This document shows positions 177 through 18,835 of a DNA stretch of 43,626 bases, piece after piece. The stretch is from Erysipelotrichaceae bacterium (GTDB taxonomy: Bacteria; Bacillota_I; Bacilli_A; Erysipelotrichales; Erysipelotrichaceae), in contig SVBJ01000015.1 of NCBI GenBank assembly GCA_015058955.1, positions 1 through 43,626 of the forward strand. The letters are read 5' to 3'. A program made the translations under genes and the position numbers. The notes beneath the pieces were generated by a model. That model worked only from the letters and a program-made list of their open reading frames with translations, did no database searches and was not told the DNA's origin. Within the stretch, counting starts at the first letter, position 1; every line of letters starts with the position of its first letter.

Positions 177-650
177 TTACAGCCACTTTGCCCCGTTAAG
201 CATTTCTTCCCACATTGGAAGATTCTCTTCCTTCAGGTTATCCCTGACATAGAAATGGAAATAATACAGGGCATCTTTTATCTTCAGGCAGAACGATTCA
301 CCGTACATAGTGAGGCCATCCTTGTCATAGTTATAACAGTAACCCTGAGCTTCTTTTCCGCCAATGGAAAGATAGCGGAAGCCCTGCAGCCTGTAATTGT
401 CATTACTCATGGCCTTGGCTACGACCTTTTCACTGCTGCGGGCGACATCCTTGGAATTCAGCAGCAGTCTGGCCATTGCATTGATCTTGGTCCAGGCTGC
501 ACTGATCAGCACATGCCTTTCCTCATCCCTGATCAGATCCCCGTTGCCTTCCTTAATGAAATTAAGTTCACTTCTTTCATCAGCACTCAGTACGTGAAAG
601 CCTTCGGGATAATACAGTTCAACAGCATTGTTCAGATTTATTGCGTTCAT
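177..650 (-). CDS. Hypothetical protein, 157 aa, possibly PsbP/DcrB-like
   Basis: A soluble-looking 157-residue protein without signal peptide or membrane segment. The N-terminal part carries a YYPEGF motif and the C-terminal part a run of aromatic beta-strand-like sequence (YYFHFYVRDN) before a short helix. This pattern recalls small PsbP/DcrB-like proteins, but no catalytic motif is visible and the family is not certain. It starts 21 bases after the DUF218 gene, with AAGGAAG a little upstream of the ATG, so it is probably the last gene of the operon that begins at 2941. No function can be assigned. Confidence 0.7.
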   Translation of the reverse strand: MNAINLNNAVELYYPEGFHVLSADERSELNFIKEGNGDLIRDEERHVLISAAWTKINAMARLLLNSKDVARSSEKVVAKAMSNDNYRLQGFRYLSIGGKEAQGYCYNYDKDGLTMYGESFCLKIKDALYYFHFYVRDNLKEENLPMWEEMLNGAKWL

Positions 651-8067: not shown

Positions 8068-8364
8068 ATGATAATAGAAAAACAGGTAACAGATTCAGCC
8101 ATGACCATCAAGGTCATCGGACGCCTGGATTCAGTAACCTCTCCGCAGCTGGAAGAAGTTACCAGCAAGGAACTGGAAGGGATCACTGATCTGACCTTTG
8201 ACTTTTCCGAACTGGAATATATCTCTTCTGCCGGCTTAAGAGTAATTCTGATTTCCCAGAAGACCATGAACAATCAGGGAAAGATGCGCGTAACCGGCAT
8301 CAATCAGGAAGTCAGAGACATTTTTGAAGTTACCGGGTTTGTGGATATCATTGATGTTGAATAA
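8068..8364 (+). CDS. STAS-domain protein (anti-sigma factor antagonist-like)
   Basis: A stand-alone 98-residue STAS domain of the SpoIIAA/RsbV type. The phospho-site motif is YISSAGLR, with Ser54 in the position of the serine phosphorylated in RsbV/SpoIIAA; DFSELEY precedes it and a VTGFVDII helix follows. In known systems the unphosphorylated STAS protein binds the HATPase kinase and frees that kinase's partner. Here the probable kinase/phosphatase is encoded two genes downstream, with no sigma factor nearby. CAGGAGG precedes the ATG. It is the first gene of a five-gene operon; the next begins 16 bases after its stop. Confidence 0.93.
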   Translation: MIIEKQVTDSAMTIKVIGRLDSVTSPQLEEVTSKELEGITDLTFDFSELEYISSAGLRVILISQKTMNNQGKMRVTGINQEVRDIFEVTGFVDIIDVE

Positions 8365-8380
8365 TTGGGGGGATTTTAAA

Positions 8381-9472
8381 ATGAAGTTTGAAAAGGAAAT
8401 CATTGAAGGCGTACAGGTGATAAAACCGTACGGACGCATCGACAGCAATACCTCACACGAGTTTGAGGAAATACTGAACCGGGAAATAGAACCGGGCCGT
8501 GACGTGGAGATCGACTTCCGTGAAGCCGTCTATATTTCTTCATCAGGATTACGTTGTCTGCTGGGTTTAAGAAAGCGTCTTGGTGACGATGCCAGCATCG
8601 TTTTCACTCATGTCAATGATGTCATCATGGATGTCTTTGAAATGACCGGCTTTACCGATCTATTTGAAGTAGTCAGGATGGACATGAACAATCCTGACAC
8701 CAGAGTCATCTTCTTCGACATTGACGGTACCCTTCTGTCACATAAATCCGGAAGCGTTCCGGAAAGCACCGTCCGTGCCATTAAGAAGCTGCAGGCCAGA
8801 GGAATCAAGGCAGTCATCGCCACCGGCCGTGACCTGGTTGAAATGGAAAAGCTCCCATTACAGGGCATAAAGTTTGACGGTTACCTGACTCTTAACGGCA
8901 ACATCTGTCTGGATGAAAACAAGAAGATGTTCGCCGGCAATGAAATAGCTCCTGACGAAGTGGAAGTACTGGTCAACATCTTCAAGGCCGGCCGCATTCC
9001 ATTCGTTCTGATCGGTGAAAAGCAGAGATACATAAACTACGTTGACGATGTCGTCATTCAGACCCAGATGTCAACACACGGCACCATTCCTGACATCGGG
9101 GAATACCATGGTGAAAAGATCTACCAGTGCCTGGCCTTCGTCAACAAGGAGATCAGACAGAAGCTGGATGACCTTTTGGACAAGTGCGTCATTACCAGCT
9201 GGAATGATACCGGCATTGACATCATCGCCAAGACCGGCGGCAAGGATGCCGGAATTCAGAAGTTCCTTGACAGAGAACATATCACCAGAAGCCAGACCAT
9301 GGCCTTCGGTGACGGGGAAAATGACATGGCAATGCTGCGCTTTGCCGGAATCGGCGTAGCCATGGGCAACGGCAGCGACCTGCTGAAGCGGAAGGCAGAC
9401 TATGTCACGGCATCAGTTGATGACGACGGCATTGAAAAAGCCCTGTTGCACTTCGGATTAATTGAAGAATAA
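8381..9472 (+). CDS. STAS domain fused to a Cof-type HAD phosphatase
   Basis: Residues 1-100 form a STAS domain with YISSSGLR and candidate phospho-serine Ser54. From about residue 106 a complete Cof/YidA-type HAD hydrolase follows: motif I FFDIDGT (Asp113, Asp115), motif II IATGR (Thr148), motif III lysine near Lys288 in GGKDAG, and motif IV GDGEND (Asp311, Asp315), with the C2 cap between. All catalytic residues are present. HAD proteins of this group dephosphorylate sugar phosphates or cofactors. The STAS part would let phosphorylation state or partner binding control the enzyme. GGGGGGA before ATG 8381 fixes the start; an in-frame upstream start at 8324 overlaps the previous gene and lacks a site. 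Confidence 0.92.
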   Translation: MKFEKEIIEGVQVIKPYGRIDSNTSHEFEEILNREIEPGRDVEIDFREAVYISSSGLRCLLGLRKRLGDDASIVFTHVNDVIMDVFEMTGFTDLFEVVRMDMNNPDTRVIFFDIDGTLLSHKSGSVPESTVRAIKKLQARGIKAVIATGRDLVEMEKLPLQGIKFDGYLTLNGNICLDENKKMFAGNEIAPDEVEVLVNIFKAGRIPFVLIGEKQRYINYVDDVVIQTQMSTHGTIPDIGEYHGEKIYQCLAFVNKEIRQKLDDLLDKCVITSWNDTGIDIIAKTGGKDAGIQKFLDREHITRSQTMAFGDGENDMAMLRFAGIGVAMGNGSDLLKRKADYVTASVDDDGIEKALLHFGLIEE

Positions 9473-11613
9473 TGTCTGTACTTATGACAATTGAGAACAT
9501 AACTGATAAGGTAAATAACCAAAAAAAGAAAAAATCACTGAGCACGAAGATGTTCACCATCATTCTGCTCTTTTCGCTTGTTTTAAGTGTTGCCGCCATT
9601 CTATTCGGCTTCAATCTGTATTCCACGGCGGTCTATAACCAGTACGCAGGAATTGCCAATAACATTTCCAGGACATCAGCTATTGTCATTACCGAACAGG
9701 ATGCCCTGCACTACTGGAAAGATGTCTATAACATTTACAGGATCACTCCTGAAGAAGTGCACCAGACCAAGGGCAGTCAAACTTACCGTCTGCTGTATTC
9801 ACCGGTAATTGACCGCAATCTGGTCAACATGCAGATAATGCTCTCCAAGATTGCCAAGGAAAACAAGCTGATGAAGATCGGTCTGACGATCTTTGACAAA
9901 GAATCACGCCGACTGATAAACGTTTACAGTTCCGACCGCAGTGAGCCTGTCGGTAACTGGTATCCTGCGGCCAGCCGCCGCAGCAGTAACATCATCATAC
10001 ACCGCCAGGCTGAAACGCAGTGGGACACTGATCTGCCTTACATGCTGGTCAGGGATGATAATGGTTACTACTGTACCAGCTGGACCAGGGTTGCCGAGGA
10101 TGAAGATACCATTGTCATGGTCATGACAGATGTTGACATGTACATGGTTGACGACGATGCCAAAGCCTTCCTGGTACAGTTCGTGCTGTTGCTGGCAACT
10201 CTGACACTGGGAGTATTTCTAATCATCAGCCGCCGTCTGAAGAAAAAGGTCGTTCAGCCGATTGAGGACATGAACCAGGCCGCCAAGAACTACATTGCCG
10301 ACAAGGCCGACGGTCTGCCGGATTCCTATCACTTCCAGAAGCTTGAGATCCACACCAACGATGAGATCGAAAGTCTGGCTGATACCTTTGCCGACATGGA
10401 AAAGCAGATCAGTGAATACCTTAATAACCTGACCAGAGCCGCTACGGAAAAGGAAAGAATCAGATCCGAACTGAATCTGGCGGCTCAGATCCAGCGCAGT
10501 TCCCTGCCTTCCGTCTTCCCGCCATACCCTGACATCAGAGAATTTGACATCTATGCCAGCGTTGACCCTGCCAAGGAAGTCGGCGGTGACTTCTATGACT
10601 TCTTCCTGATCGATGATGATCATCTGGCCATGGTCGTAGCAGATGTCTCCGGCAAAGGAATTCCGGCCGCTCTGTTCATGATGGCCTGCAAGATCGTCAT
10701 CAATGACCTGGCAACCTTAGGCATTACTGACCCGGCGGAGATACTTTACAAGGTCAATAACCGCATAGTCAAAAACAATACCCTGGACATGTTTGTCACT
10801 GTCTGGCTGGGTATTCTGCAGATCTCAACAGGAAAGATCCTGGCGGCTAATGGCGGTCATGAATATCCTTGCCTGATGCGAGCCGGAAAGAAATTTGAAA
10901 TGATCAAGGACAGACACGGTCTGGTATTGGGCGGCATGGAAAACGTTAATTACTACACCTATGAGATCCAGATGAACCCGGGTGATGTCCTGTTTACCTA
11001 CAGTGACGGTGTTCCTGAATCTACCAATACATCCAACCAGCTGTTCGGCAACGACAGAATGCTGAATTCACTTAACAATGACACGGCTGCTTCCGTCAGA
11101 CAGCTGACACTCAATGTCAAGAAAGACATTGATGCCTTTGTCCAGGAAGCTCCGCAGTTCGATGACATAACAATGCTGGCATTACGCTACAATGGAGGCG
11201 ATAATATGAATGAAATGACAGTTGAAGCCATAATCGACAACATACCGGCAGTAACCGCATTCGTGGATGAAAAGCTGGAGGCTCTGAACTGCCCGATGAG
11301 AGCAGAGACCCAGATCGATGTTGCCATTGATGAACTCTTCAGCAACATTGCCAAATATGCCTATCATCCGGATACCGGACCGGCAACAGTAAGGGTGGAA
11401 GTTGAAAATGATCCGCTGGCTGTTGTCATCACTTTCATTGATAACGGCATTCCTTATGATCCGCTCTCTCATAACGATCCTGACACTACCCTTTCTGCAG
11501 AAGCCCGAAGCATCGGCGGACTGGGAATCTACCTGGTCAAGAAGACCATGGACGATATCACTTATGAGTACAAGAACGGACAGAACATTCTCAGAATAAA
11601 GAAAGAGATTTAA
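9472..11613 (+). CDS. Membrane receptor with SpoIIE/PP2C phosphatase and RsbW-like kinase domains
   Basis: A 713-residue sensor protein. TM1 (about 28-46) and TM2 (about 234-252) enclose a ~185-residue extracytoplasmic sensor region. A HAMP-like segment (253-310) and a linker helix follow. The SpoIIE-type PP2C phosphatase domain spans about 340-570, with metal ligands in GGDFYD (371-376), Asp391 in VADVSGKG, Asp512 in SDGVPE and DDIT (564-567). The last ~135 residues are a HATPase_c_2 kinase domain with N-box ELFSN (Glu621, Asn625), DNG (657-659) and GGLGIYLVK (682-690). It should both phosphorylate and dephosphorylate STAS partners. The start codon overlaps the previous stop as TAATG. Dual-domain precedents are SypE and HsbR. 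Confidence 0.93.
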   Translation: MSVLMTIENITDKVNNQKKKKSLSTKMFTIILLFSLVLSVAAILFGFNLYSTAVYNQYAGIANNISRTSAIVITEQDALHYWKDVYNIYRITPEEVHQTKGSQTYRLLYSPVIDRNLVNMQIMLSKIAKENKLMKIGLTIFDKESRRLINVYSSDRSEPVGNWYPAASRRSSNIIIHRQAETQWDTDLPYMLVRDDNGYYCTSWTRVAEDEDTIVMVMTDVDMYMVDDDAKAFLVQFVLLLATLTLGVFLIISRRLKKKVVQPIEDMNQAAKNYIADKADGLPDSYHFQKLEIHTNDEIESLADTFADMEKQISEYLNNLTRAATEKERIRSELNLAAQIQRSSLPSVFPPYPDIREFDIYASVDPAKEVGGDFYDFFLIDDDHLAMVVADVSGKGIPAALFMMACKIVINDLATLGITDPAEILYKVNNRIVKNNTLDMFVTVWLGILQISTGKILAANGGHEYPCLMRAGKKFEMIKDRHGLVLGGMENVNYYTYEIQMNPGDVLFTYSDGVPESTNTSNQLFGNDRMLNSLNNDTAASVRQLTLNVKKDIDAFVQEAPQFDDITMLALRYNGGDNMNEMTVEAIIDNIPAVTAFVDEKLEALNCPMRAETQIDVAIDELFSNIAKYAYHPDTGPATVRVEVENDPLAVVITFIDNGIPYDPLSHNDPDTTLSAEARSIGGLGIYLVKKTMDDITYEYKNGQNILRIKKEI

Positions 11614-11615
11614 TT

Positions 11616-12200
11616 ATGGATCAGAGTTTATTTAATGAAGCACTGCTGTTTGCGCTTAAAGCCCATGATGGGGTAACCCGCAAGAACAGCACCAATCCTT
11701 TCATTCTCCATCCCATGGAAGTAGCTACGATCGTCGCCTCAATGACGGAGAACATCGAAGTAGTGATTGCTGCCCTGCTGCATGACACTGTTGAAGATGC
11801 CGGGGTAAGCCTGGAAGAAATTGCGGATAAATTCGGAGTCAAGGTTACCATGCTGGTACAGTCCGAGACTGAAGACAAGAGAAGAGACATTCTGCCGGAA
11901 GATTCCTGGTACATCCGCAAGGAAGAATCACTGAATGTGTTAAGGACCACCAGGGATCCGGAAGTAAAAATCCTCTGGCTGGCTGACAAGCTGTCCAACA
12001 TCCGCTCATTCTACCGCATGCATGCCGTCAAAGGTGATGACATGTGGCTGGATTTCCATCAGAGAGATCCGAAAATGCAGCAATGGTATTACCGCAAGGT
12101 TGCCGCTTACACCGCTGAACTGGCTGATACCGCAGCCTATCATGAATATTGTTTCTTGTTAGAAAGACTTTTCAAGGAGTTACCAAATGGCACTGATTAA
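11616..12200 (+). CDS. HD-domain (p)ppGpp hydrolase-like protein
   Basis: A 194-residue stand-alone HD hydrolase resembling the hydrolase half of RelA/SpoT. The motif order matches: AHDGVTRKN and the metal histidine His32 in LHPMEVA, LLHDTVEDAG with His56-Asp57 and Glu60-Asp61, and Asp124 in LADKLSNIR. No synthetase, TGS or ACT domain is present, so it belongs with small alarmone hydrolases (MESH1-like). Pyrophosphate removal from (p)ppGpp is the family expectation; another nucleotide is possible. It starts two bases after the receptor gene and its last 14 bases overlap the STAS-kinase gene, pointing to translational coupling. Confidence 0.85.
   Translation: MDQSLFNEALLFALKAHDGVTRKNSTNPFILHPMEVATIVASMTENIEVVIAALLHDTVEDAGVSLEEIADKFGVKVTMLVQSETEDKRRDILPEDSWYIRKEESLNVLRTTRDPEVKILWLADKLSNIRSFYRMHAVKGDDMWLDFHQRDPKMQQWYYRKVAAYTAELADTAAYHEYCFLLERLFKELPNGTD
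12174..12179 (+). promoter_or_regulatory. RBS inside the HD gene for the STAS-APH gene
   Basis: AAGGAG lies seven bases before ATG 12187, inside the coding sequence of the HD protein. It fixes the start of the downstream gene and the 14-base overlap. Confidence 0.8.
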
Positions 12201-13368
12201 TGTAAAAAATGAAAACGGCCTGTTAACCATCGGCTTAACTGGACACATTGATTCCAATAATGCACCTGCAGTTGAACAGGAGATCACAGATGCCCGCGAG
12301 GCAAACGAATTTGAAAATGTCGTCGTTGACTGCAGTGACCTGGAGTACATTTCCAGTGCCGGCTTACGTATCATCCTGCGACTGAAGAAGCTGTATCCTG
12401 ATCTTAAGGTCATCAATGTCTCCAGTGAAGTATATGAGATCTTTGACATTACCGGATTTACCGAAATGATGGAAGTCCGCAAGGCCTACAGACAGCTGTC
12501 GGTTGAAGGCTGTGAGATCATTGGTCAGGGTGCCAACGGCAAGGTATACCGCATTGATCCGGATACCGTTTTGAAGGTCTATCATGACGTCAATGCCCTG
12601 GACGACATTAAGAGAGAAAGAGAACTGGCCAGAACTGCCCTGATCTTAGGCATTCCAACAGCCATTCCATATGATGTCGTCAAGGTTGGTGATGTTTTCG
12701 GCTCAGTCTTTGAACTTATCAATGCTGAAACCTTTGCCAAGCTGATTCAGAATGACCATGCTTCTCTTGATGATGTAGTCCGCATGTCTGTTGATCTGCT
12801 CAAGACGATCCACTCTACCGAAGTCAAGCCTGGCAGCATGCCTGACATGAAGACCGTTGTCAAAAACTGGGCAGCCTTCCTGAGTGAATATCTGGAACAG
12901 GAAGACTATCAGAAACTGCATGATCTGGTCGATGCCGTACCTGATGATCTGCACATGATCCATGGTGACTATCACCTCAAAAACATCATGCTGCAGAACA
13001 ATGAACCTCTGCTGATCGACATGGATACCCTGTGTCACGGCCATCCGGTATTTGAGTTCGCTTCAATCTTCAATGCCTATCAGGGCTACAGTGAAATGAA
13101 CCATGACAACATGATGGACTTCTTAGGAATTCCATACGAAATGGGTGCCGAGATCTGGAATAAGACCCTTCATTTCTACTTTGATGACAAGACTGAAGAA
13201 GAAATTCAGGACATTGCCGACAAGGCCAAACTGGTCGGTTATACCAGAATCATGAGAAGAACCATCAGAAGAAACGGCTTCAATACTGAACTAGGCCGCA
13301 GGGAAATTGAAAACGCCAAAAACCACATTCACGAACTGGTGAACAGGCTGGATTCCCTGGCTTTCTAG
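12187..13368 (+). CDS. STAS domain fused to an APH-like (aminoglycoside phosphotransferase fold) kinase
   Basis: Residues 1-98 are a STAS domain with YISSAGLR and candidate phospho-serine Ser57. Residues ~105-393 form a kinase of the APH/choline-kinase fold: glycine loop GQGANGKVY (113-121), Lys130 in VLKVY, Brenner motif HGDYHLKN (259-266, catalytic Asp261) and LLIDMD (275-280, metal Asp). All catalytic motifs are kept, so it should be active. Several kinases of this group resemble the TIGR02172 family, whose substrate is unknown; antibiotic resistance is unlikely from context. It is the last gene of the operon before a strong terminator. Confidence 0.9.
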   Translation: MALINVKNENGLLTIGLTGHIDSNNAPAVEQEITDAREANEFENVVVDCSDLEYISSAGLRIILRLKKLYPDLKVINVSSEVYEIFDITGFTEMMEVRKAYRQLSVEGCEIIGQGANGKVYRIDPDTVLKVYHDVNALDDIKRERELARTALILGIPTAIPYDVVKVGDVFGSVFELINAETFAKLIQNDHASLDDVVRMSVDLLKTIHSTEVKPGSMPDMKTVVKNWAAFLSEYLEQEDYQKLHDLVDAVPDDLHMIHGDYHLKNIMLQNNEPLLIDMDTLCHGHPVFEFASIFNAYQGYSEMNHDNMMDFLGIPYEMGAEIWNKTLHFYFDDKTEEEIQDIADKAKLVGYTRIMRRTIRRNGFNTELGRREIENAKNHIHELVNRLDSLAF

Positions 13369-14001: not shown

Positions 14002-14337
14002 CTAGAGAATCGCAATCAGAGCCATCAGCATCCTTCTGGGAATATGACCATCGATTCGATAAAGCCAGCGACCATTAGCAGAATTAATGCGGTCCCCGTC
14101 AATTCGGTAAACCCAGCGTCCGTTTGCATCAGTTACATAATCACCATCGAGTCTGTACAGCCAGCGGCCATTGGCATAATTAATGCGGTCTCCGTCAATT
14201 CTGTATTCCCATCTGCCGCTGCGGTCACAGACATAATCACCATCCAGCCTGTACAGCCAGCTGCCGTTTGCGCTGTTAATTCGATCTCCGTCAATCTGGA
14301 ATACCCAGCGCCCGTTTGCATCAGTCACATAAACCAT
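14002..14337 (-). CDS. Six-fold 16-residue repeat protein, beta-flower-like
   Basis: A 111-residue protein made almost entirely of six exact 16-residue units (residues 5-100). Trp recurs at 11, 27, 43, 59, 75 and 91; Gly at 9, 25, 41, 57, 73 and 89; Asp-Gly at 16-17, 32-33 and every 16 thereafter. The consensus is x-x-A-N-G-R-W-x-Y-R-x-D-G-D-x-x. Units alternate between two forms, giving three 32-residue super-repeats. There is no signal peptide. The pattern resembles the small beta-flower fold described from predicted structures, with each unit a beta-hairpin; that match is from memory. The last 11 residues (RRMLMALIAIL) are hydrophobic and outside the repeat. GAGGTG precedes the ATG. Function unknown. 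Confidence 0.85.
   Translation of the reverse strand: MVYVTDANGRWVFQIDGDRINSANGSWLYRLDGDYVCDRSGRWEYRIDGDRINYANGRWLYRLDGDYVTDANGRWVYRIDGDRINSANGRWLYRIDGHIPRRMLMALIAIL
14038..14325 (-). repeat. Coding tandem repeat, three 96-bp (six 48-bp) units
   Basis: The DNA of the repeat protein consists of 288 bases, in 48-base units that pair into 96-base super-repeats. Odd units resemble one another more than their neighbours, suggesting growth by duplication of a two-unit block. Confidence 0.85.
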
Positions 14338-14438: not shown

Positions 14439-15503
14439 CTAATTGTTTCTGGCAAACTGTGCCTGAAGCTTTTCATAGAATTTCGGATCATCCTGACCAT
14501 AGCGCATCTGGCATTCATCCAGGGCAGCCTTGTAAAGGGTGACATTGATGTGATCATCGATATTAATCTGTCTGGCTTCTTCATCCAGCAGACCCAGTCG
14601 CTCCATGTAATTCCAGGCACGCCTTACTGAAGTCTTCATTGGATCCGCATTCAATTCAAAGCGAGGATTGTCAAGATATGATCTGATAACCTGTTCATCG
14701 AGATTGATCTGCTTTACCGTAGCCTTGACCGTTTCCTCATGATGAGCATCATAGTATGCCCAGGCTCTGATCCAGGCTCTTAACAGGGCCTTGACGGTGT
14801 TTGGATTGGCGTTGACCCATGATGTCAGAGCTTCAGCGCGGCAACATGAATATGCCGGCAGAACGTCATCAGCGTATGTCAGGATCTTCAGTTCCGGATC
14901 ATTCAGTACTTCATAATTCAGGGCAGTACCTACCAGAGCAAAGTCAGCCTCACCGTTTCTGACGGCTTCAATGCGGTCCATCTGATCTTCCGGATTATAC
15001 CAGGTGATCTGCGTAAGAGGATCATATCCCATGTCCAGCAAAGGTCCGGTGATGGCATACATGTTCGGTTCGCAGGCCATCGTCTTGCCGATGAGGTCCT
15101 CAATCCCGTTCCATGGAGTTTCCACTCTGGCAAAGATCGGCATGCATCCGGACAGCAGATAACCTCCGAAGATGGTCAGATCCAGACCGAATGATATTTC
15201 CTGCAGAGGCAGGTTGGTTCCCGAGTTGGAAGCTATGTCAATCCTGCCGGCTCTGATGCCTTCAAAGACTTCAGCGTCGGTTTCTACGGAAACATATTCA
15301 ACTCTGATACCTTCTTCTTCCAGATATCCCTGGCTTTCAGCTATGGAATTGAGGATGTGTCCTGATTCGTTCAGTGCCAGACGGACAACCGCTGTTTCAG
15401 GAACATCTTTTCTTTCTTCATCTTTTTTATCAGGATTTATGTCGTAGGAGCATCCGGAAAGAACCAGCATGAATGTAATAATCATTAACATCAGTTTTTT
15501 CAT
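14439..15503 (-). CDS. Solute-binding lipoprotein (NMT1/SsuA-like), orphan
   Basis: A 354-residue lipoprotein. The signal peptide MKKLMLMIITFMLVLSGC ends in lipobox LSGC with Cys18. The mature part has the two-lobe periplasmic-binding fold of the NMT1/SsuA/TauA type: RLALNESGHILNSIA, a FEGIRAGRIDIAS motif, DLIGKTMACE and NGEADFALVGTA. The family binds thiamine precursors, sulfonates, nitrate or similar ligands; which is unknown. No ABC permease or ATPase gene is near. It starts 14 bases after the MscS-like gene with GGAGGGG upstream, so the two are co-transcribed. An upstream in-frame reading from 15671 only shadows the channel gene. It may deliver a ligand to the channel's sensor regions. 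Confidence 0.88.
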   Translation of the reverse strand: MKKLMLMIITFMLVLSGCSYDINPDKKDEERKDVPETAVVRLALNESGHILNSIAESQGYLEEEGIRVEYVSVETDAEVFEGIRAGRIDIASNSGTNLPLQEISFGLDLTIFGGYLLSGCMPIFARVETPWNGIEDLIGKTMACEPNMYAITGPLLDMGYDPLTQITWYNPEDQMDRIEAVRNGEADFALVGTALNYEVLNDPELKILTYADDVLPAYSCCRAEALTSWVNANPNTVKALLRAWIRAWAYYDAHHEETVKATVKQINLDEQVIRSYLDNPRFELNADPMKTSVRRAWNYMERLGLLDEEARQINIDDHINVTLYKAALDECQMRYGQDDPKFYEKLQAQFARNN

Positions 15504-15517
15504 TGTCTTTCCCCTCC

Positions 15518-18500
15518 TTACTTCTTTGTCTCTGCCGGTATCTGGCTGGCAGCAACCGGCTTGACACTGGCAACCGGCTGATTGGCGATCTTGATGCCAT
15601 TGCGCTGGAAGATCTGCAGCAATGACTTGTTGAGATATCTGTTGATGCCGCGGACATCCTTTTCCGAACATCTGGCTATGACGGTAACAGTGTAGCGTCT
15701 CTCAGCCAGTTCGGAAACACCCAGACTGGTTGGTCCGTCCAGGATCTGTCCGTTGTCTTCCTTAAGCAGCGGCAGTTCGCGGTTCAGTACTTCCTCAACG
15801 ATATCGATATCCTGTCCATACTCCAGACCGATCGTGGCAGAAGCGACAGAAGTTTCCTTGGTCATGTTAAGTACTCCGGAGATCTCACTGTTGTTGAAGA
15901 TCTTGACGTTGCCGCCTCCGGAGATCTTGGTCGTTCTTAAGCCGATATCGGTAACCGTACCGCGGAATCCGTTAATTGTAACAATGTCGCCGACACGGAA
16001 TTCACCTTCAAAAACGATGAAGATACCGGCGATGATATCCTTGATCAGACTCTGAGCACCCAAGCCTATGACCAGAGACAGGATTCCGGCACTGGCCAGC
16101 AGATTAGGTGAATCGACTCCAAATAAATACAGACAGTAGAACAGAGCACCGATCGTTCCGCCGTATTTGACAATTGACAGTAACAGATGGCCGATCGTCT
16201 CACCCCGGGTTCCCAGCAGTGAAGTACACAGACGGACCGGGATCCTGAACAGTTCAATGGCAATCAGGGTCATTAAGATGACCATGATGGCAGCGCTCAG
16301 GGCAAACAGGTTAGGACTTCTGTCCCATCCTCTGGACAGAATGTAATTGACGATGGAATCATTGGAAGTTCTGTTGATTCCGACAGCTGACAGTACAAAG
16401 TACAGCACCGGGATGGCAATGATCCATCCCAGAATGGATACAAGCTTCATTTCCGGTGAACGCTCATTCCAAGGAATGCGTTGATTATTCCAGCGGATCT
16501 GGGCCATTGTCGTACTGGCAAAGCGGCCTGACGGCAGGATTATGCTGAAAATCGATGAATTCAGATTATCATCGCCTTTCACATCACTGATCAGATCATA
16601 GACTTCATCATTGACGGTGGAAGTAATCGTAACCGACAGTAACAGCAGTGCAATCATGAACAGACATACACCTGCTGTGATCAGAGAAATTGAGCCGCGG
16701 CTGGTATACATGCTTGCCTGCGGTAAGGCTGTAGCGATGAAATATTTATCGATGAAACGGAATACCTGGAAATATGATACGCCGTTTATCCTGTTGAATC
16801 CGTAATAAACATCTCCGGTAAAGGCCTTTGATGATACCCCAAGCTCAGCAGCGGTTTTTCCGATGCTGGCCTTTACCGGAGAATACACACAGGTGTGTTC
16901 CGGAGTATTGTCAAACATGATCATGGAGCCTCCTGACAGCATTTCCGTTGACAGGATGGCATCGGCATTGGTGTCAGCCATAATCGAGCTGACCAGTTCG
17001 CTGTCCAGAGCTATCTGCAGCATAGATCTGTGTCTGGTAATGTTGCCGGCCTTGGTAACGTTGCTGACACCTTCCCGGGCACAGGCTTCTTCATAGGCAT
17101 ATCTGGAAACATAGACGGTTTCGCCATTGGCAGCCTTGGTGGTAAAGTAATGCATTGAGATGCCGAAATACTGGGAATTTACCCCAAGATCATCGGTCAT
17201 GGCTGTCTGCAGATAACTGTCAGTTTTTCCTTCCAGTACCCGGCGGAACGGATATGAATGATCATCAGGGTTCTGACTCAGAGAAAAGAACCAGTTGCCT
17301 GTATTGGTCGCAATCGTATGACCGTCTTCATCGAAGATGTAAATTGCCTCAATGCGGTTTTCATCACAAAGCTGCTGCAGTATTGCGGAATTGGCTACAG
17401 ATTTCAAACGGTTGCCCTCATCATCGATCAGGAACTGTCTGTTGCCTTTGTCATCGTAAATGCTGTGATAGAATTCTGAACCGGTATTAAGAACTTCCGG
17501 GCTTTCCTCCGCGAAGAAGGACAGAAGCTTGGCGGTTGAAATGAACCGGGATTTATAGTAATCTTCAATGACTTCACGGCTTTCAATGCTTTCTTCATAA
17601 CGGCCGATTACTTCCTGCAGGATGACGTTGGACTTGTCAATTCCTTCGGTTATTTCCAGAAGAGTCTGAGTATAGAAAGTAATGGCATATACCACAATGA
17701 TGCCTATCATCATTAACGGCATTACCTTTTTAAAGACTGATTTGTTGAAATACATTGGTTTTTCCGGATCGCTGCTCAGCATGATCTTTTCCGGCTTGAT
17801 GTTATTGCGGATAAAGTCATTTCTGACAAATACGGCATAAAGCAGGCACAGCGTCATTACGATAATGAATCCCATAACTGACCATAACAGAACGTACTTG
17901 TCACGGGAACCCATGGTCTTTGATCTGGCAGCAGCCACGATCACGGTATCGTCACCAAACGCCCTGGAAGTACAGTAGTACTTCTCCCCGAGAATGGTCT
18001 GAACACCCCGGTATCCGTCGGTCATGATGTCCTGGTTAAGTCCGGTATTATAGGCATTCTGTCCTGTCAGCAGGTCAGTGCCGTTTTTATAGTACATGAA
18101 CAGGTCATCTGTTCTGTTAACCGCAAACAGGAAGCCGTCATTGATGACAGACATACGGCTTAATACTGCGGACACATCTTTCAGAGAAGCGATGCGCTCG
18201 TCCAGAGCCCAGGAACTGGTCCCCATCGCCAGAACATACTGGCTGTCACCATAGAAATACGGCATTGCATAATAATAGTAGGTTCCATAAATGTTCTTTA
18301 CCAGAACCGGCTCGGAATTGTGACTCATTTTCAGCATCCGGTTAAGGTTATCCTGCGTCACAAAAGCAGTTGTGGCCAGGTTACGGCCGAACAGTTCTTC
18401 ATTGGAAGTTACCACAACATTGCCATTTTCATCCAGCAGAAACAGATTTGATATTCCTGCCGGTGAAGAGAGTTCGGTAAACATCTCGGCACGAACATTG

Positions 18501-18835
18501 TTTTCGTTGGCCATCATTTTTTCAAAAAGGCCTTTTTTAAACAGCAGTTCTATGTCATCCATGGTATTCCAGTTTCCCTGGTGGAAGATATTGGTCAGGC
18601 TTTCGGAGTTTTCGGTATTTTTGTCCAGAATGGAAACCACTTCTGTCAGAGCCAGGTTGTTATTCTCCTGCTGCTTGATTATTGAAGTCTTTGACTGAAC
18701 ATTGCTGAGGAAAGCATATATTGCAATTGCACCGAAAAGCATCATCACCATGTTTGCGATGATGTTGGCCGTAACGATCCTCTCGTTTCTGGTCAATTTC
18801 TGATTTTCCATGATTTCTGTCTGATTGTTATCCAT
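15518..18835 (-). CDS. MscS-family channel with two extracytoplasmic sensor regions
   Basis: A very long MscS-type protein (1105 aa; E. coli MscS has 286). TM1 (~23-44) and TM2 (~313-336) enclose a ~270-residue Cache-like sensor region. TM3 (~370-388) and TM4 (~716-737) enclose a second ~325-residue one. Then come a short cytoplasmic linker, TMs at ~797-819, 842-866 and 881-907, and the pore helix and beta domain: LLASAGILSLVIGLGAQSL (912-930), VFEGEFRVGD (941-950) and INGFRGTVTDIGLRTTK (954-970). The C-terminal cytoplasmic alpha/beta domain is present. It could release solutes when membrane tension or an extracellular ligand changes. It begins the operon with the binding lipoprotein. Sensor domain names are inferred from topology. 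Confidence 0.88.
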   Translation of the reverse strand: MDNNQTEIMENQKLTRNERIVTANIIANMVMMLFGAIAIYAFLSNVQSKTSIIKQQENNNLALTEVVSILDKNTENSESLTNIFHQGNWNTMDDIELLFKKGLFEKMMANENNVRAEMFTELSSPAGISNLFLLDENGNVVVTSNEELFGRNLATTAFVTQDNLNRMLKMSHNSEPVLVKNIYGTYYYYAMPYFYGDSQYVLAMGTSSWALDERIASLKDVSAVLSRMSVINDGFLFAVNRTDDLFMYYKNGTDLLTGQNAYNTGLNQDIMTDGYRGVQTILGEKYYCTSRAFGDDTVIVAAARSKTMGSRDKYVLLWSVMGFIIVMTLCLLYAVFVRNDFIRNNIKPEKIMLSSDPEKPMYFNKSVFKKVMPLMMIGIIVVYAITFYTQTLLEITEGIDKSNVILQEVIGRYEESIESREVIEDYYKSRFISTAKLLSFFAEESPEVLNTGSEFYHSIYDDKGNRQFLIDDEGNRLKSVANSAILQQLCDENRIEAIYIFDEDGHTIATNTGNWFFSLSQNPDDHSYPFRRVLEGKTDSYLQTAMTDDLGVNSQYFGISMHYFTTKAANGETVYVSRYAYEEACAREGVSNVTKAGNITRHRSMLQIALDSELVSSIMADTNADAILSTEMLSGGSMIMFDNTPEHTCVYSPVKASIGKTAAELGVSSKAFTGDVYYGFNRINGVSYFQVFRFIDKYFIATALPQASMYTSRGSISLITAGVCLFMIALLLLSVTITSTVNDEVYDLISDVKGDDNLNSSIFSIILPSGRFASTTMAQIRWNNQRIPWNERSPEMKLVSILGWIIAIPVLYFVLSAVGINRTSNDSIVNYILSRGWDRSPNLFALSAAIMVILMTLIAIELFRIPVRLCTSLLGTRGETIGHLLLSIVKYGGTIGALFYCLYLFGVDSPNLLASAGILSLVIGLGAQSLIKDIIAGIFIVFEGEFRVGDIVTINGFRGTVTDIGLRTTKISGGGNVKIFNNSEISGVLNMTKETSVASATIGLEYGQDIDIVEEVLNRELPLLKEDNGQILDGPTSLGVSELAERRYTVTVIARCSEKDVRGINRYLNKSLLQIFQRNGIKIANQPVASVKPVAASQIPAETKK

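Follow-up and report, generated by a model that had tools for sequence, protein, structure and literature searches.

An MscS-type channel with two extracytoplasmic dCache domains, strictly paired with an NMT1/SsuA-like lipoprotein that may act on its sensors

Introduction

What does a solute-binding lipoprotein do when it is encoded directly behind the gene of a very large MscS-type channel, with no transporter at its side? The question is raised by a stretch of 43,626 nucleotides (hereafter the window) on contig C9 of an assembly of 1.78 Mb in 37 contigs, from a gut bacterium that we take to be a member of the Erysipelotrichaceae. A preliminary description of this DNA proposed a ligand-gated channel, to whose outer loops the lipoprotein presents a ligand. 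Here, we examine the two proteins, their occurrence in other genomes, and the readings that may account for their association.

Architecture of the channel

The channel gene (15518-18835, minus strand) encodes a protein of 1105 residues, for which the open reading frame, hydropathy, Pfam matches and an AlphaFold2 model give the order TM1-dCache1-TM2, TM3-dCache2-TM4, TM5 and MscS core. Hydropathy places membrane segments at about residues 19-48, 312-343, 365-395, 711-743, 793-823, 839-871, 884-902 and 907-943, that is, eight transmembrane helices with the N- and C-termini inside. The two large loops of the preliminary description are real (about residues 47-311 and 391-711, between helices 1 and 2 and between helices 3 and 4), but its helix layout lacked a fifth helix (about 794-818), which lies between helix 4 and the three MscS helices. 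Because the number of helices is even and the C-terminal MscS domain is inside, both loops must be outside. On the minus strand, TM2 (residues 312-341; helix 312-343 in the model) corresponds to positions 17813-17902, TM3 (residues 367-390, also a helix in the model) to 17666-17737, and TM4 (residues 712-736; helix 713-736 in the model) to 16628-16702.

TM5 and the MscS core, made up of three transmembrane helices and the beta and alpha/beta domains, occupy residues 794-1083 (15587-16456, minus strand). The core is intact, as had been anticipated for its pore and beta domain: PF00924 matches residues 930-977 (E 3e-13; 50.1 bits against a cut-off of 20.2), PF21088 falls just short of its cut-off at residues 888-928 (23.0 against 23.1 bits), and residues 880-1082 align to the Thermoanaerobacter-type MscS structures 3udc and 3t9n with E 2e-35. 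The cytosolic alpha/beta domain is present as well, since the VIA alignment to 3udc (Z 14.8) covers residues 826-1089. The pore helix (residues 908-945; 16001-16114, minus strand), which aligns with TM3 of 3udc, varies less than any other part of the family alignment, and the beta domain is also conserved; judging from this conservation of sequence, the protein is predicted to function as a pore. A bCNG identity was considered and discarded, because the Pfam scan found no cyclic-nucleotide-binding domain and the C-terminus stops soon after the alpha/beta domain. The same scan detected no kinase domain; the output domain is the MscS core.

The two sensor loops

The first extracytoplasmic loop, dCache 1, spans residues 46-311 approximately (17903-18700, minus strand), and the second, dCache 2, which carries an insert in its distal half, residues 391-711 (16703-17665, minus strand). 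In the AlphaFold2 model of the channel, which was built from 48 aligned relatives and is of moderate confidence (pLDDT 77.4, pTM 0.64), each loop consists of a long stalk helix followed by two PAS-like folds, one distal and one proximal to the membrane, and then returns to the membrane. Such a succession between two transmembrane helices is the plan of a dCache domain. Comparison with known structures by VIA agrees with this assignment, and a Cache-like fold can therefore be attributed to both loops, each of which matches dCache structures of chemoreceptors. Loop 1 matches the tandem CACHE of PscC (6mni; Z 15.8, 119 residues, 2.3 A), with further matches to Mlp24, TlpC and PctA, and loop 2 matches PctA (5t7m; Z 13.1, 220 residues, 8.8 A) and Tlp1 (4wy9; Z 12.4, 111 residues, 2.9 A).

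The Pfam scan returned no Cache match for the channel of the window, and the only protein of this genome with dCache_1 above cut-off is a different one. Of eight relatives, five gave weak matches to sCache_3_2 (best E about 1e-5) and three to dCache_1 (about 1e-4). The TM1-loop1-TM2 and TM3-loop2-TM4 units are homologous to each other (hhalign 99.5%, E 2e-23, 305 columns), which indicates that the sensor half of the protein arose by duplication.

The binding lipoprotein and its gene

Immediately downstream of the channel gene lies the gene of a lipoprotein of 354 residues (14439-15503, minus strand), assigned to the NMT1/SsuA type of solute-binding proteins by PF09084 (E 3.8e-13, above the curated cut-off); the match to SsuA_fam TIGR01728, in spite of its E of 1e-15, is below cut-off. 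Its model (pLDDT 83.5) shows a two-lobed fold similar to those of SsuA, ThiY, Thi5 and TauA (Foldseek E 1e-14). The lipobox LSGC (residues 15-18; 15450-15461, minus strand) contains Cys18, which is invariant in 22 relatives. The outermost ATG, at 15671, would give an open reading frame of 410 residues overlapping the channel gene, and was rejected in favour of the start at 15503 that fits the lipobox. The two genes are thus separated by 14 nucleotides (15504-15517, minus strand) containing the ribosome-binding site GGAGGGG, in agreement with the original reading of this junction. Among relatives, the distance ranges from -8 to +17 nucleotides, the commonest arrangement being a start-stop overlap of 4 nucleotides, and junctions this short or overlapping suggest translational coupling of the pair.

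The absence of a transporter was also borne out, as the neighbouring genes include neither an ABC ATPase nor an ABC permease; none is present in the window, and none was recognized beside relatives at least 59% identical.

It could be thought that the channel is an ordinary tension-gated MscS, with outer domains that are structural or make contact with the wall and have lost ligand sensing, considering that large N-terminal parts also occur in MscK and YbiO. However, invariant residues are conserved in both sensor domains, and the binding protein is not only retained, but highly conserved (73% mean column identity). Of the explanations considered, we find this one the least probable.

Neighbouring genes

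On the plus strand of the window, positions 8068-13368 hold what resembles a partner-switching operon in which domains are fused in unusual ways: STAS, STAS-HAD hydrolase, membrane sensor-SpoIIE phosphatase-HATPase, a RelA/SpoT-like HD protein and STAS-APH kinase. Its last three genes are kept in one relative, L037, whose contig ends there. SpoIIE-type phosphatase genes are found near or next to the pair in other species as well (L108:8001-11001, L114:5679-7028 and L115:993-2345). Close to the lipoprotein gene, positions 14002-14337 (minus strand) encode a protein of 111 residues composed of repeats like 'YRIDGDRINYANGRWLYRLDGDYV', with weak beta-flower/LOR matches.

Conservation of the pair

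Among 60 relatives, six further genomes have a lipoprotein 67-87% identical to that of the window behind a long channel. In the whole family (272 genomes, with about 49 long channels), the lipoprotein was found in 26 genomes, in one of which the copy is split over two contigs; in all 26 it adjoins a long channel, and at E 1e-20 it occurs nowhere else. Nine genomes have two long channels, and in these the lipoprotein adjoins just one of the two. In one case (L041) the lipoprotein seemed to have been lost, but the gene is present and had been masked by an antisense open reading frame.

A single-sequence scan of genome contigs with the channel of the window gave no matches, and the wider survey was obtained from the lipoprotein alignment. 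Searching 84,980 species with its profile yielded 41 loci, which coincide with the family set in many genomes and add about a dozen clostridial ones. They comprise 37 loci with such a channel directly upstream, one second half of a split gene, and three loci free of channels, so that every testable close relative of the lipoprotein (37 of 37) is encoded directly behind such a channel. The synteny of the two genes that the preliminary description had proposed to look for is therefore conserved, both in the family and in the larger scan. Paired loci belong to Erysipelotrichaceae, Mogibacterium, Lachnospiraceae and other Clostridia. Those near relatives of the pair that carry a name are metagenome-assembled genomes labelled Erysipelotrichaceae, on which our assignment of the host to that family is based. 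One clostridial channel nests among Erysipelotrichaceae sequences, and the pair has therefore probably been transferred between lineages. The genes flanking it vary between genera, and no metabolic gene travels with it; since the two genes stand together in dozens of genomes whose flanks differ, the pairing is not due to chance.

The three channel-free loci encode distant relatives of the lipoprotein (37-44% identity) and contain an ABC ATPase and a permease. Two of them have been annotated: near one ABC operon are genes of a methionine gamma-lyase and an aminotransferase, near the other those of a cysteine synthase and a cystathionine gamma-lyase/synthase. These loci bear on two alternative explanations. 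According to the first, the lipoprotein works with an ABC transporter whose genes lie elsewhere, and is itself just co-expressed with the channel. The genome does contain a second NMT1 protein, on contig C32, beside genes resembling those of an ABC transporter; that system, however, has its own binding protein, as do the channel-free relatives their own ABC genes, and in none of the 26 genomes does the orphan lipoprotein occur away from the channel. We therefore regard this explanation as very unlikely. According to the second, the solute captured by the lipoprotein passes through the MscS pore, either for uptake or for recapture of what has leaked out. The resemblance of the lipoprotein to binding proteins of ABC importers, and the location of its nearest channel-free relatives in ABC operons, would fit such a role, and MscS-type channels export glutamate and like metabolites, according to the available part of the source (PMC12541555). 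But the MscS pore is passive, the two dCache domains of each subunit would be left without a role, and the pair is accompanied by no metabolic gene, all of which makes a conduit for solutes quite unlikely.

Channels without the lipoprotein

About 22 long paralogues have no adjoining lipoprotein gene and yet keep both dCache domains, from which it appears that the sensors can also work without the lipoprotein. Reading of the neighbouring open reading frames revealed no other evident binding protein beside these unpaired channels. L044-L050, which might be taken as counter-examples to the pairing, are shorter channels (926-1008 residues) without lipoprotein and form a separate branch. Two of these loci (L045:7689-12443 and L046:2862-7615) contain a shorter MscS sensor channel of 934 residues, also without lipoprotein, followed by homologues of the first two genes of the window (177-650 and 672-2153). 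Distant long channels of 1234 and 1185 residues, belonging to another family of the same class, likewise without lipoprotein, are present in L168:3902-7606 and L169:712-4269; in both loci the channel is adjoined by the gene of a similar-looking 'IxTDSCxDLP' protein. At L096:2687-6589, a long channel reaches 1300 residues, some 180 more than its relatives.

The unpaired paralogues raise the possibility that the dCache domains bind ligands of their own and in this way control the channel, by gating or by tuning, and that the lipoprotein does no more than buffer or deliver a ligand near the membrane, with no docking. Indeed, dCache chemoreceptors bind ligands directly, and among the structures matched are those of PctA and Mlp24 with amino acids. 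This explanation sits less well with a pairing that is strict and single-copy, and with a motif of the distal part of dCache 1 that is exclusive to the paired channels (see below), and we consider it rather unlikely.

A signature of the paired channels

A tree of 48 channels unites all those paired with the lipoprotein in one clade (SH-aLRT 100). Thirteen positions are fixed in paired but not in unpaired long channels; seven map to the distal half of dCache 1, with six of these inside residues 152-165, and none is in the pore or in the beta domain. Control clades had 7-17 clade-specific positions, with a maximum of four per span of 14 residues. The resulting signature (residues 152-165; 18341-18382, minus strand) has the consensus NPA....TQEN.N. 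It recurs in ten held-out clostridial channels, every one of which has N152, P153, Q161, E162 and N165, while nine of them have A154. The channel of the window, which reads NLATTAFVTQDNLN, deviates from it at L153 and D162.

Residues 152-165 are thus a candidate docking face for the lipoprotein, as far as the pattern of sequence conservation can suggest one. The paired clade has a single origin, and the signature accordingly represents one evolutionary event; it may mark some other change, such as an altered ligand of the dCache domain. The mirror-tree correlation between channel and lipoprotein is moderate (0.47) and was not taken as support.

Proposed mechanism

The reading that we favour is that the lipoprotein, when loaded with its ligand, docks on dCache 1 and thereby tunes the pore, much as LuxP informs the LuxQ kinase and HptA informs HptS (PMC8534201), the two genes constituting a chemosensory system; this we consider somewhat probable. 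The lipoprotein would be an exapted ABC-type solute-binding protein, tethered at the outer face of the membrane, that closes around a small ligand and then attaches to dCache 1 at its membrane-distal half. Docking would alter the pose of the sensor helices next to the MscS helices, and the changed pose could shift the tension threshold of the pore or its open probability. The docking itself, the direction of its effect and the identity of the ligand are all inferred. The two fused TM-dCache-TM units of each subunit may act as a built-in receptor pair, and one might speculate that they are equivalent to the pair formed by two chains in dimeric chemoreceptors; equally speculatively, a pair built into one chain would fit a seven-fold channel. 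For the general proposition that a separate, ligand-loaded lipoprotein acts on fused dCache sensors to gate the channel or tune its tension threshold, so that a recruited subunit of an ABC importer has become a ligand receptor, we see an even chance. The ligand-gated interpretation first advanced for this locus is, on the whole, partly supported: neither of the two findings that would have refuted it was obtained, and strict pairing, the dCache folds, restriction to one clade and the residues of distal dCache 1 all speak for a lipoprotein acting on the loops.

As to the ligand, an organosulphur or sulphur-amino-acid compound may be suggested, because the closest relatives encoded in ABC operons adjoin enzymes of methionine and cysteine metabolism. 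The conserved stretches SGTN-P, GPLLD and LPxYSCCR, common to paired and ABC-operon lipoproteins, point the same way. The two groups are not alike at every conserved position (E145 and N147 of the paired lipoproteins are examples), and the ligand may therefore have changed.

Comparison with known systems

If the proposal is true, a solute-binding protein controlling an ion channel would be a new output beside kinases and chemoreceptors, an outside chemical cue would be converted directly into a flow of ions or solutes, and the pair would offer a tractable case of gating by force plus ligand in the MscS family. The unpaired paralogues are natural controls for a channel with its receptor, sometimes within one genome, and the motif found only in paired channels offers a direct mutational test. 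Searches of the open literature, as distinct from subscription papers, turned up no account of an MscS channel that has dCache domains or a binding protein of its own.

The action of solute-binding proteins on extracytoplasmic sensor domains is known (PMC9602780). Examples are LuxP, which acts on LuxQ through the tandem PAS-like domains of the latter, and HptA, which acts on HptS (PMC8534201); genes of solute-binding proteins and sensor kinases are often adjacent (PMC8534201, PMC11113362). The system of the window resembles LuxP-LuxQ and HptA-HptS in combining a binding protein with a sensor that has PAS/Cache-like outer domains, encoded by adjacent genes, and differs in its output, where an MscS pore takes the place of a kinase. 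Among the partners of solute-binding proteins, a paper of 2022 counts chemoreceptors, kinases, cyclic-di-GMP enzymes and Ser/Thr kinases; the word 'channel' is absent from it (PMC9602780). With the binding proteins of the SsuA/TauA/ThiY-type ABC systems (NMT1), the lipoprotein shares fold and Pfam family, whereas its partner is a channel and it has no permease or ATPase.

On the side of the channel, the solved structure closest to the pore and beta domain is that of the Thermoanaerobacter MscS (3udc, 3t9n; about 32% identity), a protein that, however, has three transmembrane helices and no sensor loops. MscK and other large MscS channels share the MscS core. Gating of MscK takes external K+ plus tension, so that ligand-plus-force gating is already known in the MscS family; MscK differs in its N-terminal periplasmic domain of about 500 residues and its 11 transmembrane helices, and the available part of the source mentions no paired binding protein (PMC9653487, for this and the gating). 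Finally, channels with Cache domains or with an operonic binding protein were proposed from genomes in 2004, for the prokaryotic Cys-loop channels (PMC549065). Their fusions to Cache domains or periplasmic binding proteins, and their PBP-II neighbours, represent the same kind of association in an unrelated pore family, while the system described here has a Cache fusion and a binding-protein partner together, with a pairing that extends over dozens of genomes.
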